Source of the DNA: Paenibacillus sp. DCT19 | Lineage (GTDB): Bacteria > Bacillota > Bacilli > Paenibacillales > Paenibacillaceae | Direction: 5' to 3' | NCBI RefSeq assembly: GCF_003268635.1 | Contig: NZ_CP029639.1 | Coordinates: forward strand, 611,001-675,000 | DNA: 64,000 bases | Shown here: positions 32,898-36,791 of the stretch, piece by piece | How positions within the stretch are numbered: position 1 is the first letter of the stretch | Layout: the number at the start of each line of letters is the position of its first letter | The notes under the pieces: model-generated | Told to the model about the DNA's origin: nothing | What the model saw: the letters and a program-made list of their open reading frames with translations, nothing else | The model's database searches: none | Translations under genes and position numbers: made by a program

Positions 32898-34328
32898 TCA
32901 TTCTAACGTAGGTGTATTTCTGGCCTTCTTTTTATTAGTAAGGCACAGGCTAGGGATAAAGATCAGCGCTAAGATGATCGTAGCCACAAGAAAAGCAATA
33001 TGGTACCCTTGCAATTGATGTGCAATCGTTGGATGTAAGCCTTGTAGAGCCGTTGCAACAGACGTTGCAATAATTGCTGAGCCAAAGCTTGAACCCAGAT
33101 TTTCAATGATATTGATGCCAACGCCTGCCTCAGGAAGCTGTTTGCTGTCGAGTCCAGTGTAGGCTTCACTCATCAATGGAAGACTAATGCCTCCAACGCT
33201 GACGCCACGAATGAACAGGATGACCGAAATCCAGATCATACTCGTCGTATCCGAGATGAAAATGAAGGGAATAGAACCGATAAGGGAAAGAACAAGACTG
33301 ACAATTAGTACATATTTTGCACCAACTCTATCAATCATTTTTCCAATGAAAGGCCGAGTGATTAGCATACCAACGCCTTGGGGAATGAGTGCAACTGCCG
33401 TTTGAATTACTGTGAAGTCTCGAAAGGTCTGAAAGAACAGGGGGAGTATCAACATCGGACCCATAATAGCGATATTGGCTAAGAATAGCCCCGCGCTTGA
33501 TGCTGCAAAGTTTCTGTGTGCAAACAAATTCATAGGCAGAACGGTTTGATTGTTTTTAAGACGATTATAAACGAGATAAATGATAGCCAAAGCAAGGCCA
33601 ATCCCCATCCACAAGATCGTTTCGTGATTATTAAAAGTAGCATGATCTGCTGCTTTGGTAATTCCATAAATTAAAGCTACACTCATAGAGGATAAAACGA
33701 TAATTCCAACTAGATCGAGCTTGCTCTCTTTGTTGAAGGGTTCAAAGTCTGGAATCTTTCTGATCATTAATGGCGTGGAGATCAATACAATGAACACGTT
33801 AATGAAAAAGATCCATTGCCAAGATGCTGCCTGAACGATGAATCCACCGATGATTGGTCCCAAGATAGGGCCAAAGATCATAGGTGTACTCACAATAGCC
33901 ATGACTCTGCCTAAATATTGTTGTCCCGTTGTTTTAACTAAGAGGGTGAACATCAATGTCGTAATGACTCCGGCACTGAATCCTTGAAGTAAACGGAATA
34001 GGATGAAGCTTGAAATATCCCAGCTAACGCCGACTAAGACCGAAATCACGCCAAAAGCAATTACAGCCCCAACGAAAACCTTCTTGCCGTTAAATGTATT
34101 CATGAGCCAGCCAGATACAGGAACTGCAATCGCAAGGGCTAAAATATATCCAGTGATGGCCCATTGGATGGTATCCAATGTGGTATGGTAATCCTTTGTT
34201 AGTTGATTTACAGCAATGTTCACCATGGTAGAGTCTAGCATAGGAGCAATGGCTCCTAGCGCAATCGCCCAAGCAGTGATAAGAATATGTTTGGGTATTC
34301 CAGGTTCCTTTACGTTGTCTGATGTCAT
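32898..34328 (-). CDS. MFS multidrug exporter, DHA2 family (EmrB/QacA type)
   Basis: A 476-residue, fourteen-helix drug/proton antiporter. Signature stretches: LDSTMVNIAVNQLTKDYHTT (motif D1), WAITGYILALAIAVPVSGWL, LFRLLQGFSAGVITTLMFTLL and the antiporter motif C-like FGPILGPIIGGFIV. The start at 34328 follows AAAGGAG; an upstream start at 34403 would put about 25 hydrophilic residues across the promoter. It is downstream of and presumably controlled by the MarR gene, but has its own promoter and operators. Confidence 0.94.
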   Translation of the reverse strand: MTSDNVKEPGIPKHILITAWAIALGAIAPMLDSTMVNIAVNQLTKDYHTTLDTIQWAITGYILALAIAVPVSGWLMNTFNGKKVFVGAVIAFGVISVLVGVSWDISSFILFRLLQGFSAGVITTLMFTLLVKTTGQQYLGRVMAIVSTPMIFGPILGPIIGGFIVQAASWQWIFFINVFIVLISTPLMIRKIPDFEPFNKESKLDLVGIIVLSSMSVALIYGITKAADHATFNNHETILWMGIGLALAIIYLVYNRLKNNQTVLPMNLFAHRNFAASSAGLFLANIAIMGPMLILPLFFQTFRDFTVIQTAVALIPQGVGMLITRPFIGKMIDRVGAKYVLIVSLVLSLIGSIPFIFISDTTSMIWISVILFIRGVSVGGISLPLMSEAYTGLDSKQLPEAGVGINIIENLGSSFGSAIIATSVATALQGLHPTIAHQLQGYHIAFLVATIILALIFIPSLCLTNKKKARNTPTLE

Positions 34329-34348
34329 ATTATGCTCCTTTAAAATGA

Positions 34349-34401
34349 ATTTTGTTTCCTCGTCAACTAAAAATCTACTCTTATTTTGTTTCCTTGTCAA
34401 C
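34349..34401 (-). promoter_or_regulatory. Promoter and duplicated operator of the DHA2 exporter
   Basis: On the minus strand TTGACA (34400-34395), 17-base spacer, TAGATT (34377-34372). Two 19-base direct repeats, 34383-34401 and 34349-34367, differ at one base (reading GTTGACRAGGAAACAAAAT). They are 34 bases apart; one covers the -35 and the other the expected start site. A good layout for repression by the adjacent MarR protein. Confidence 0.8.
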
Positions 34402-34413
34402 AATAATTAGAGA

Positions 34414-34477: not shown

Positions 34478-34948
34478 TTACTTCGTTAGATCTAAACCTT
34501 GTTTGTCTATTTCCATATCCAAATGTTTGCTGTACACTTCAATGAAGTTCAGCATTTTATCATATTGTTCTTCAGTTACATGATTAAATACAGATTCATC
34601 TCTCTCTTGAAACTCTGTATGAAGTTTCTCATGAATGTCATATATGGTTCTGCCTTGCTCGGTTAGTCTAAAAAAGACTTCCTTCTTATTATTTGCTTTT
34701 TGATAATCTTCGATCAGACCCTTTTCGATGAGCTTCTTCGTTAATTTACTTATGGCACCCTTGGTCATATACAGGGATTCTGCCAGCTTGGTTACGTTGG
34801 AATCTACATTTTTCTCTATAAATTCAATGCAATGGACTTCAGAAGGCTTATATCCTTTAAGACTACTTTCCATCTTCGATTTATTAATCCAAACCAATTT
34901 GTTGAATAAGTCCCTGAAATCCATCATGACCTGTTCTTGCTTGTTCAT
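34478..34948 (-). CDS. MarR-family transcriptional regulator
   Basis: A 156-residue winged-helix dimer. The DNA-binding core reads NVTKLAESLYMTKGAISKLTKKLIEKGLI, followed by a wing with KKEVFFRLTEQGR. N- and C-terminal helices form the dimer interface. MarR proteins usually repress an adjacent exporter until bound by a toxic ligand, which fits the DHA2 gene 150 bases downstream on the same strand. The start follows a GGGGTG-type site in the leader. Confidence 0.93.
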   Translation of the reverse strand: MNKQEQVMMDFRDLFNKLVWINKSKMESSLKGYKPSEVHCIEFIEKNVDSNVTKLAESLYMTKGAISKLTKKLIEKGLIEDYQKANNKKEVFFRLTEQGRTIYDIHEKLHTEFQERDESVFNHVTEEQYDKMLNFIEVYSKHLDMEIDKQGLDLTK

Positions 34949-35062
34949 GGTTAGTCACCCCATATGAGTTATTTCCTAAGATAAACTATAACCTTTTATG
35001 ATTTAAAATCAAATCGCGTCACCAACATGAACATGGATGGCAAACAATTCAACAACATGCTC

Positions 35063-35071
35063 TGATATAAT
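35063..35071 (+). promoter_or_regulatory. Extended -10 promoter for the leader/CD3324 transcript
   Basis: TGATATAAT is a perfect extended -10 element (TGnTATAAT); no good -35 is present, as is common for this class. Transcription would begin near 35078, 34 bases before the leader peptide start. Confidence 0.6.
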
Positions 35072-35111
35072 AGCAGTTAGCAGCTATCTATTTTCTGTGG
35101 AGGTGAGGCCA

Positions 35112-35228
35112 TTGAAAACAATCGGGGTAGGATTCTTATATGCATGGCTCTATGCAAAGCCAGTGAAGGATATGGCAATGCTTTGCATAGAGATTAGCAA
35201 CAACCCAATTGCCAACAACGAGTTGTAA
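35112..35228 (+). CDS. 38-codon leader peptide ORF upstream of the CD3324 gene
   Basis: A TTG-initiated frame of 38 codons with a strong GGAGGTGAGG at good spacing. The peptide begins MKTIGVGFLYAWLYAKPVKD and ends NNPIANNEL. It is followed after 55 bases by the next start. Two alternative hairpins and a third structure over the downstream Shine-Dalgarno begin inside it, so it is better explained as a regulatory leader than as a stand-alone protein. No homologue is recognised. Confidence 0.6.
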   Translation: MKTIGVGFLYAWLYAKPVKDMAMLCIEISNNPIANNEL

Positions 35229-35273
35229 TATTCTACGAACTGGCTTTGCACCTTATTGATTTATTAAATAAGG
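35150..35273 (+). promoter_or_regulatory. Mutually exclusive RNA hairpins, candidate translational attenuator
   Basis: P1: CTATGCAAAGC (35150-35160) with GCTTTGCATAG (35180-35190), perfect over 11 bp. P2: TGCAAAGCCAGT (35153-35164) with ACTGGCTTTGCA (35239-35250), perfect over 12 bp and sharing the P1 left arm. P3: CCTTATT (35251-35257) with AATAAGG (35267-35273), covering the AAGGAG of the next gene. P1 and P2 cannot coexist, as in erm-type leaders. Confidence 0.65.
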
Positions 35274-35283
35274 AGTGAGGCAC

Positions 35284-35550
35284 GTGAAATATTCAAAAGC
35301 CGAGTCGATTTTCCCGGAAGAATTGCTACGGATCATTCAAGAATACGTTCAGGGCGAATTGGTATACATCCCCAAACCTAAAGAGACACACCTCAAATGG
35401 GGAGAGAAAACACACAGTAAGAGTAAAGTATCTGCTCGAAACGCTGAGATTAAATCCTTATTCCGTGATGGAATAAGCATAAACGAGTTGGCGGAGCGGT
35501 ATTTTTTGTCCTGTGAAAGTATTAAGAAGATTGTTTATACAAAGAACTGA
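35284..35550 (+). CDS. CD3324-family protein with C-terminal helix-turn-helix
   Basis: An 88-residue protein starting MKYSKAESIFPEELLRIIQEYVQG, followed by LVYIPKPKETHLKWGEKT, the diagnostic part of the CD3324 family. The C-terminal 40 residues (NAEIKSLFRDGISINELAER, then YFLSCESIKKIVY) form a helix-turn-helix like Mor-type activators. GTG start at 35284, eight bases after AGGAG; a GTG at 35275 overlaps that site. Exact function of the family is unknown; DNA binding is likely. The mRNA leader suggests regulated translation. Confidence 0.88.
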   Translation: MKYSKAESIFPEELLRIIQEYVQGELVYIPKPKETHLKWGEKTHSKSKVSARNAEIKSLFRDGISINELAERYFLSCESIKKIVYTKN

Positions 35551-35552
35551 TG

Positions 35553-35594
35553 GAATCCGCTACATCGTCGTATCGACGGTTTAGCGGATTTTTG
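35553..35594 (+). terminator. Terminator after the CD3324 gene
   Basis: AATCCGCTA pairs with TAGCGGATT around an internal CGTCG/CGACG stem, followed by TTTTTG. Confidence 0.88.
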
Positions 35595-35708
35595 TGCAAA
35601 GATGAATTAAATCAACTTATACATAGTAACTGCATCTCTAAATCGATAGACTCAAGTTAAGTTTGTTGTGATCCAAGGACGTCTGCATTAGGAGAAGGGG
35701 GCAGTGAA

Positions 35709-36791
35709 ATGAACGAAATCATAATGAAACAGCTGCTGGACAAAAATGAATGGCTGATCAACATGGTGATCGAACGTGTAAAGAGAGATTTTCTAGACGA
35801 TATCGCCATTATTGGGCTTACGGGTTCATTTAGCACCGGGGACTTTCACGAGAAGAGTGATCTGGATCTAATTATCATTAATAATACGGATAAGGGGTGG
35901 GGGATATCCGATTGCTTCATCTTGGATGACGTTGGATATGACATCTATTGCACGCCTTGGGATACAAGAATACACGAACAATCCACCTTGGAAAGTCCCA
36001 ACGTATCGAGCCTAACCGAGCTCAAAGTACTCTATTATGCCAAGCCTGAGGATTTGGAGAAATTGAACGGATTCAAGCAAAAAGCGCTTGATGGACTTGC
36101 GGATCCAATCGGAGAAGCGTGTCTTCATCGAGCCAAAAAATGGATTGATCTGGCTAAGCAAGCCTACAGCGATACGATGCTGGGTGAAGATATTGGCTCC
36201 GTGCGGCAGGCATCTGCCGACGTTGTATACAATCTAGTCAATGCCTTGGTCAGCATGAATAACACGTGCATTAAACGAGGAATCAAGCGATATTTGGAAG
36301 AGATATGTTCATTGCGCTATGTTCCTGATCATCTCGAATCACTTTACATGTCAGTCATTGAAGCGCATACCATTGAAGATATTCGATTAGCATCTTTCAA
36401 CATATTGAAAAGCGTTACGAAGTTACACAGCACGATGTGTGATAGCTTCATCGTTAGACCTGCTCCGACCTATGATAATCTGAAGGGAACTTACGAAGAA
36501 CTGTGGTGCAATTACCGCAACAAAATCTTGAACGGTGTTTTAACTCAGGATGCCCCTTATGTATTTCTTTCAGCCTTTGGAGCACAAGGGTATCTTGATG
36601 AAATGGCTATGGAGATCGGAACCAAGAAATTTGACCTTATGCAGTACTTTGATGCAAGTAATTTAACTGTTATACAAGAGAAGTTTCTTGAAGTGATGGA
36701 TGAGTATGCTGAGGAATATGGTAAGGTCGGCAGAGAAGTCGAACGTTTTACATCCTTCGAGCAACTGTATGCCCATTTTATGAATTGTTGA
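35709..36791 (+). CDS. Nucleotidyltransferase-domain protein (360 aa)
   Basis: Polymerase-beta-type nucleotidyltransferase fold. The GSFSTGDFHEKSDLDLIII block supplies the Gly-Ser and the metal-binding Asp-x-Asp; a third Asp is in GYDIYC. Beyond about residue 120 comes a helical domain (AKKWIDLAKQAYSDTMLGED, then SADVVYNLVNALVSM), seen in aminoglycoside-adenylyltransferase and kanamycin-nucleotidyltransferase-like proteins. Substrate unknown: antibiotic inactivation or modification of a macromolecule are both possible. RBS AGAAGGGGG. It follows the CD3324 gene but behind a terminator. Confidence 0.82.
   Translation: MNEIIMKQLLDKNEWLINMVIERVKRDFLDDIAIIGLTGSFSTGDFHEKSDLDLIIINNTDKGWGISDCFILDDVGYDIYCTPWDTRIHEQSTLESPNVSSLTELKVLYYAKPEDLEKLNGFKQKALDGLADPIGEACLHRAKKWIDLAKQAYSDTMLGEDIGSVRQASADVVYNLVNALVSMNNTCIKRGIKRYLEEICSLRYVPDHLESLYMSVIEAHTIEDIRLASFNILKSVTKLHSTMCDSFIVRPAPTYDNLKGTYEELWCNYRNKILNGVLTQDAPYVFLSAFGAQGYLDEMAMEIGTKKFDLMQYFDASNLTVIQEKFLEVMDEYAEEYGKVGREVERFTSFEQLYAHFMNC

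Follow-up and report, generated by a model that had tools for sequence, protein, structure and literature searches.

The window analyzed here is the whole stretch of 64,000 nucleotides from Paenibacillus sp. DCT19 (G000:C1:611001-675000), and the feature under study is encoded on its plus strand. At positions 35284..35550 lies a gene of the CD3324 family, most likely starting at the GTG at 35284 and encoding a small Mor-like protein of 88 amino acids. Its product matches the NF040785 model with 112.6 bits over residues 2-83 (curated cut-off 65), and the Mor model PF08765 scores 21.1 bits, below its cut-off of 24.9. The AlphaFold2 model of the protein has a mean pLDDT of 84.7 and three C-terminal helices; a comparison of this model with the PDB returned no matches at E <= 0.001. 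The following plus-strand gene (35709..36791) encodes a nucleotidyltransferase domain (NTP_transf_2, PF01909, 27.8 bits, cut-off 21), and such a gene was found 3' of CD3324 in 22 of the 23 loci examined from class 1, the class of the window; at the remaining one, L053, the contig ends about 0.5 kb past the leader. Across 80 named loci, the next ORF of at least 80 codons after CD3324 lay on the same strand and within 300 nt in 63. Among these mechanically picked ORFs, whose groups were each typed by one representative, the recurrent products were APH phosphotransferases (20), SpoU rRNA methylases (9), amidases (9) and GNAT proteins (4), and one group of 11 loci had no Pfam match. Several of these neighbours would suit a drug-response operon and some, such as the amidase, would not; since gaps of about 150 nt lie behind CD3324, co-transcription is considered here only as a possibility. 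Upstream of the leader, two divergent minus-strand genes encode a MarR-type regulator (34478-34948) and an EmrB/DHA2-type multidrug MFS transporter (32898-34403). Just 3' of CD3324, at 35555-35589, ATCCGCTA...TAGCGGAT followed by T's resembles a terminator by eye; the terminator pattern scan, which did not return this site, allows loops of 3-8 only.

The leader upstream of CD3324 contains a short ORF, MKTIGVGFLYAWLYAKPVKDMAMLCIEISNNPIANNEL (35112..35228), running for 38 codons from a TTG start at 35112 to the TAA at 35226-35228. It is preceded by the Shine-Dalgarno sequence GGAGGTGA (35099..35106), which is kept in the class-1 relatives listed and reads GGAGGTG in L062. Further upstream, the extended -10-like element TGATATAAT (35063..35071) is tentatively regarded as a possible promoter of the leader RNA; its nine bases are identical in 9 of the 12 plus-strand rows compared, and a consensus promoter scan did not list it. 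The ORF overlaps arm A (35147..35164), composed of a 5' half (35147-35153) and a 3' half beginning with the GCA at 35154. Within this arm, CTCTATGCAAAGC (35148-35160) is perfectly complementary over 13 bp to arm B (35180..35192), and TGCAAAGCCAGT (35153-35164) over 12 bp to arm D (35239..35250), the two pairings being mutually exclusive. Pairing of A with B constitutes state I, in which D can bind positions 35275-35281 behind the CD3324 Shine-Dalgarno. State II joins the 3' half of A to D and adds helices P1b and P2, whose 5' arms occupy 35168..35179 (GGATAT, 35168-35173, and GGCAAT, 35174-35179) and whose 3' arms fall within 35208..35233 (P2, ATTGCC, 35208-35213; P1b, ATATTC, 35228-35233). 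A hairpin, E/F (35251..35273; arms 35251-35257 and 35267-35273), covers the AAGG of the CD3324 Shine-Dalgarno AAGGAG (35270-35275), as read from the sequence; with the D-bindable bases that follow, this region extends over 35270..35281. The first-pass annotation had described a 38-codon frame with a strong ribosome-binding site and a CCTTATT/AATAAGG stem over the next gene's Shine-Dalgarno, both of which are borne out; the left arm it proposed does pair perfectly with two downstream segments, with D over the claimed 12 bp but with B over 13 bp rather than 11. As a single sequence, the window leader does not fold with unusual stability (z -1.10; 30 of 200 shuffles equally stable), and the case therefore rests on comparison. 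Transcription attenuation was dropped as an explanation: the pattern scan found no terminator-like site on the plus strand at 34950-35720, and no T-run follows E/F.

Of the 99 genomes in a DNA search, 19, the window's own among them, contained long matches at 81-100% identity, and there were many short matches besides. At E values below 1e-10, the leader peptide was detected in 23 of the 75 genus genomes and also, outside the genus, in two genomes from other genera of the same family (G333, G392). NF040785 matches occurred in 66 of the 75, with up to four per genome. In 109 distinct CD3324 upstream regions, a set that excludes four remnants without a start (L166-L169) and a sub-cut-off match in G110, the A/B/D cores were found by sequence pattern in 94 and with one-base variants in 2 more; 13 had none. 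A second set comprised 107 loci (L170-L276), 11 of which gave no gene to the motif, leaving 96 regions. With a pairing filter, the element was present in 169 of the 205 CD3324 upstream regions and absent in 36, these counts adding two sets that have species in common and were not collapsed per genome. It occurs in Paenibacillus, Bacillaceae and Clostridia, the named genomes including Clostridium, Tissierella, Ruminiclostridium, Lederbergia, Oceanobacillus, Cohnella, Psychrobacillus and Sporosarcina. A covariance model trained on 50 leaders from outside the window's class recovered the window leader with 70.1 bits (E 5.6e-16); no other place in the window exceeded 12.7 bits. Rfam release 15 (4227 models) gave no matches in the window at gathering thresholds; on eight loci at E <= 1 it gave three (a tRNA, its overlap on the other strand and one sub-gathering match about 2 kb from the leader), none of a family covering the element. 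Our literature search, which had most subscription papers beyond its reach, returned no description of the element, and under the name CD3324 it returned nematode work only and nothing on control by a CD3324 leader. The best reading of these comparisons is that the leader belongs to a new RNA family of translational attenuators. Broken copies were also seen: in L318 what is left of a leader has no intact gene with it, and L166, L168 and L169 carry CD3324 remnants interrupted by stops.

To assess the two folds, we used an alignment of 52 regions under 82% similarity, aligned by sequence only. RNAalifold applied to these 52 relatives chose state I, with A paired to B and D paired to the bases behind the Shine-Dalgarno (142-146 with 186-190). 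For state I (A:B, D with the Shine-Dalgarno region, E/F), 49 cells changed on both sides of a pair, against 16.3 ± 3.1 in shuffles; for state II (the 5' half of A with the Shine-Dalgarno region, a 20-pair P1 that joins A to D and extends beyond them, P2 and E/F), the count was 139 against 62.5 ± 7.8. The paired percentages were 93.6% versus 89.9% in shuffles for state I and 84.3% versus 77.8% for state II, figures that lean high for A:B and for the 3' half of A with D, since rows had been required to show at least 7 of 9 and at least 7 of 8 of these pairs, respectively; P1b, P2, E/F and the pairing of A's 5' half with the Shine-Dalgarno were unfiltered. None of 500 shuffles reached the doubly changed cells or the paired percentages of either state, and slid registers gave 34-52% pairing with 12-36 (state I) and 35-91 (state II) doubly changed cells. 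A less telling measure is how many pairs show any double change (8 in state I and 23 in state II): 7 and 9 of 500 shuffles reach it, and so do slid registers. Among individual helices, double changes occurred in 5 of the 11 A:B pairs and in 3 of the 7 E/F pairs, the latter with 86.0% of cells paired, and A:D shows a compensatory change between GCAAAGCC/GGCTTTGC and GCAGAGTC/GACTCTGC. At fixed registers in 34 representatives, the pairings of A's 5' half and of D with the Shine-Dalgarno did not covary beyond shuffles; they nonetheless exceed slid registers, and we regard these two helices as compatible rather than proven. Compensatory changes in the arms, which the first-pass annotation had named as the check among homologues, are thus present in both exclusive folds, and the comparison indicates that both have been kept in evolution, covarying beyond shuffles. 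ATTGCC of P2 persists in L062 (the G392 locus), whose leader is cut short after MKPIGVGFLHARLYAKPVKEMAMLCIEVK, as well as in L053 with its different C-terminal frame; since it outlasts a cut or shifted leader frame, it is kept as RNA. In the computed ensembles both states mostly hide the CD3324 ribosome-binding site, and the Shine-Dalgarno is partly open anyway in some relatives, up to 0.42 unpaired.

The same RNA also precedes genes of the FusB type. Model R1 rests on CD3324 leaders; for at least two of its rows, L257 and L260, the source genome has a FusB gene following as well. Applied to the window's genome, R1 found the three CD3324 leaders, a fourth place at 1816257-1816419 (44.3 bits, E 2.1e-7) and two weak matches (E 0.36, antisense, and 9.07). 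The gene starting at the end of this fourth place (L312) matches EF-G-binding_N with 73.0 bits and FBP_C with 37.5 bits (cut-offs 27.1 and 27.2), is related to solved structures of Far1 (FusB), and is the only PF07299 gene found in this genome. Its scores with the fusB/C/D/F resistance models are 90-114, below the cut-offs of 375-450, and fusidic acid resistance is therefore not claimed for it. Across 299 genomes of the class, R1 gave 109 matches in 71 genomes, and PF07299 identified 116 FusB-type genes. In 31 of these genes (hereafter FusB-direct), an R1 match is followed after 12-60 nt by the start of the domain match; in 34 (gap-type), the interval is 139-593 nt (30 of the 34 at 400-467 nt, about the length of CD3324). 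The remaining 51 had no R1 match within 1 kb, which is an upper figure for genes without the element, given that one of them (L353, 1354-1441) yielded a weak match to a second model (22.8 bits, E 0.00038). In all eight of the 34 gap-type genomes that were read, the gene behind the leader is CD3324 (105-116 bits), the copy behind the second of two leaders having been scored in G990. At that G990 locus (L325), the two R1 leaders have the same orientation and a spacing of about 0.8 kb, and the leader-CD3324 unit therefore seems to be tandem-duplicated. A Pseudalkalibacillus plasmid carries the annotated order CD3324, FusB/FusC with R1 upstream at 52 bits. A FusB gene stood behind CD3324 in only 1 of the 80 named loci (L235, Jeotgalibacillus), so this arrangement belongs to part of the Bacilli. 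Because R1 precedes both gene types, the comparison indicates that CD3324 and FusB share one leader RNA. A search of viral contigs for the FusB protein found none.

The leader ORF is itself a recurrent part of the element. A leader was counted when an ATG, GTG or TTG with a Shine-Dalgarno match of at least 5 lay 18-62 nt before the GCA of A and its frame stayed open for at least 6 nt beyond. By this definition, a leader ORF runs into the 3' half of A in 46 of the 52 relatives, against 3.3 expected when upstream bases are shuffled, and in all 46 the stop codon falls between the start of A and D. This excess indicates that the leader is translated in general. In class 1, codons 2-11 have a pN/pS of 0.163 over 17 distinct sequences, and IGVGFL never changes, although silent differences occur in four of the six codons that specify it. 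IGVGFL was found in 25 of 25 loci when the class was set by the CD3324 protein instead of the peptide, and its conservation is therefore no artefact of class picking; the class-1 peptide is under purifying selection. Class-2 peptides are not conserved (pN/pS 0.93), and the leader classes are unrelated to each other, including MKTIGVGFLHA.., MIRFIRSFTIRS.., MENLLRLSVT.., MMSKRPACS.., MGKSTICS.. and others.

An element resembling a riboswitch, in which a small molecule or the CD3324 or FusB protein sets the choice of A between B and D and the leader ORF is incidental, would account for the fact that A is read in three frames across the leaders (24, 19 and 3 of 46), since RNA is then kept over peptide. 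It would also agree with the pN/pS of class 2 and with the small Mor-like nature of CD3324, and excerpts of PMC3352095 mention that nucleic-acid binding by FusB possibly regulates its own synthesis. This explanation is nevertheless unlikely in view of the 46 of 52 leaders with a start and a frame open into A, the purifying selection on the class-1 peptide, and the near-invariant alignment columns, which lie in or beside the pairing arms, with no separate conserved unpaired core noticed.

No stall motif common to all leader classes was found, and recurrent residues are specific to groups of leaders. Class 1 shows GFL[HY][AV]. Among FusB-direct leaders (27 of 31 retrieved, 25 read), C[SP][FL][AT]R stands at -25 or -24 of A in 22 of 25, with start codons spread from -37 to -52; as the motif is fixed while the starts vary, it keeps its place relative to A and not to the start. 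In the Bacilli-type same-frame leaders (n=30), the residue at -21 is Pro in 23, Ser in 6 and Leu in 1, Pro being found in 18 of the 25 distinct sequences. These patterns bear on amino-acid attenuation, in which the leader ribosome would pause at a hungry codon during shortage of one amino acid. Its stall-dependent wiring would be identical, and such uORF attenuators exist, for instance that of cysS according to the excerpted text of PMC8632094. We consider it very unlikely, given that no amino acid is common to the predicted pause site across classes and that the genes directly 3' are CD3324 and FusB-type genes, not biosynthetic ones.

Where a ribosome would have to stand to free the CD3324 site was examined by blocking a 28-nt stretch as a model ribosome (26 nt in one ensemble calculation) and taking the opening cost of the ribosome-binding site as the readout. 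In the main set, 21 representatives of 96, the sharpest minimum was obtained with the front edge at -6 to 0 of A's GCA, where the mean change was -3.0 to -3.8 kcal/mol and 13-17 of 21 representatives dropped by more than 2 kcal/mol. Edges from +4 to +42 gave means above zero, and a second, shallower drop occurred at about +44 to +58, lowest at -1.3 (6 of 21, edges +52 to +58). For the window locus, the cost fell from 11.5 to 8.8, and for its class mate L006 from 15.7 to 8.0. Two fresh sets were also calculated. In 12 of the 31 FusB-direct leaders, the change at these edges was -1.3 to -1.5 kcal/mol (4-5 of 12), and edges further 5' already gave -1.1, so that this is barely a dip; in the Bacilli set, 16 of the 34 gap-type leaders, it was -1.3 at edge 0 (6 of 16), rising to +4 beyond. 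The front edge of a ribosome lies about 15 nt ahead of its P site. The easiest-to-open position would thus correspond to a pause near codons 8-10 of the window leader, where IGVGFL ends, a prediction that is weak in the other sets.

Leader translation might instead simply tune CD3324 output by constitutive coupling, with no regulated stall. All 46 leaders end between the start of A and D, so each passing ribosome remodels A, and the shallow drop in opening cost far down the leader (edges +44 to +58) would fit this explanation. We hold it to be the least probable of the alternatives, as two covarying exclusive folds exceed what coupling needs, the mean opening cost rises with front edges from +4 to +42, and the position of the FusB-direct motif is fixed to A and not to the start.

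In erm induction, segments 1:2 and 3:4 give way to 2:3. The first-pass annotation had likened the window leader to erm translational attenuators, and the architecture of a leader ORF with covarying exclusive folds agrees with that proposal; the erm wiring does not. No B:D pairing appeared in the computed ensembles of the 52 relatives, in which at most 5-7 contiguous pairs are possible, and blocking all of A (edges +10 to +34) raises the mean opening cost, on which grounds erm-type wiring was rejected. Unlike in ermC, B and D here both complement A, and the 5' half of A can bind the Shine-Dalgarno; arm A would be the switch, and the computed wiring does not look erm-like. What the element has in common with the ermC/ErmCL attenuator, where the sections consulted of PMC12121999 place the stall at Ile9, is a leader peptide on which a pause is expected at about codon 9, together with alternative hairpins and a hidden Shine-Dalgarno.

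The nearest functional parallel concerns fusB of the staphylococcal plasmid pUB101, for which ribosomes stalled by fusidic acid on the leader change the mRNA fold and free the Shine-Dalgarno (O'Neill and Chopra 2006, as cited in excerpts of PMC12008383, PMC3352095 and PMC12493156). As far as these excerpts describe it, that system likewise places a stall-responsive leader before a FusB-type gene, and FusB-type genes are among the targets here; unlike it, the present element has CD3324 as a main target and is spread over Bacillota. Homology to the pUB101-type leader RNA was rejected, the best model match in 2.2 kb of a staphylococcal fusB region (L403, S. epidermidis plasmid) being 4.9 bits (E 0.68). 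The toiL uORF of the E. coli topAI-yjhQ locus senses several classes of ribosome-targeting drugs, with stalls at various codons serving, according to parts of PMC12121999; the likeness lies in the proposed uORF sensing of such drugs, and toiL belongs to other genes and another phylum. The uORFC-6-1 motif upstream of hflX in Bacillales, as outlined in the available text of PMC8632094, also combines a structured RNA with a uORF, and the gene behind it acts on stalled ribosomes. It differs in the gene and in its Arg-Leu-Arg motif, which is absent from the class-1 leaders listed.

Taken together, these results make it likely that the leader is a cis-acting translational attenuator in which a ribosome would stall near leader codons 8-10, probably because of a drug that blocks the ribosome or EF-G. 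In state I, A would be held by B, and D would lengthen the hairpin over the CD3324 Shine-Dalgarno; in state II, the 3' half of A would pair with D, with P1b and P2 formed, and the 5' half could bind the Shine-Dalgarno. A ribosome stalled near codons 8-10 would cover only the 5' half of A, which could then bind neither B nor the Shine-Dalgarno, while the 3' half would still capture D. Only the weak E/F hairpin would be left over the Shine-Dalgarno, and CD3324 would be translated; E/F still lies over the Shine-Dalgarno in this presumed ON state. We infer the stall near codons 8-10, induction by translation blockers and the role of CD3324. That the stall is drug-caused is suggested by the presence of the same RNA before FusB-type, EF-G-binding genes; this sharing, together with a stall-induced plasmid relative, fits a leader stall for CD3324 as well, and switching is probably driven by translation-blocking drugs.

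The proposed attenuator would belong to a new RNA family whose leader peptides differ by class. A single covarying leader RNA with no Rfam match precedes both CD3324 and FusB-type genes, its proposed switch logic is unlike that of erm, and it would provide the first functional link for the CD3324 family, to translation stress. Interchangeable leader peptides would allow asking which drugs each one senses. More speculatively, and with rather more doubt than confidence, the element could be a general "stuck ribosome" sensor of Bacillota that swaps leader peptides freely, each tuned to different translation blockers. The regulon it switches on would then comprise modification enzymes encoded nearby, EF-G release factors of the FusB type, and CD3324 itself as either a ribosome-stress factor or a Mor-like regulator, and the whole would represent a chromosomal, drug-inducible ribosome protection predating plasmid fusB.

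Several CD3324 leaders show other arrangements. The "KNG"-class genes L104, L105, L107, L113, L114, L116-L118 and L150 have no A/B/D cores, and most genes of this class are preceded by another short ORF and by T-rich stretches that resemble hairpins; this class may use a different, perhaps transcriptional, attenuator. Distant CD3324 leaders carry other arms (L251, L253, L255; L259, L264, L270-L272, L275, with GGCTCTGAGCAAAG.. or GCGTTGGC-like repeats) and possibly follow the same logic with unrelated sequence. In leaders of Bacillaceae and Clostridia (L176, L179, L185 and others), CATTCTAACT between B and D complements the CD3324 start-codon region (AGTTAGAATG), a complementarity not noticed in the Paenibacillus classes; this pairing could be a further way of hiding the CD3324 start.
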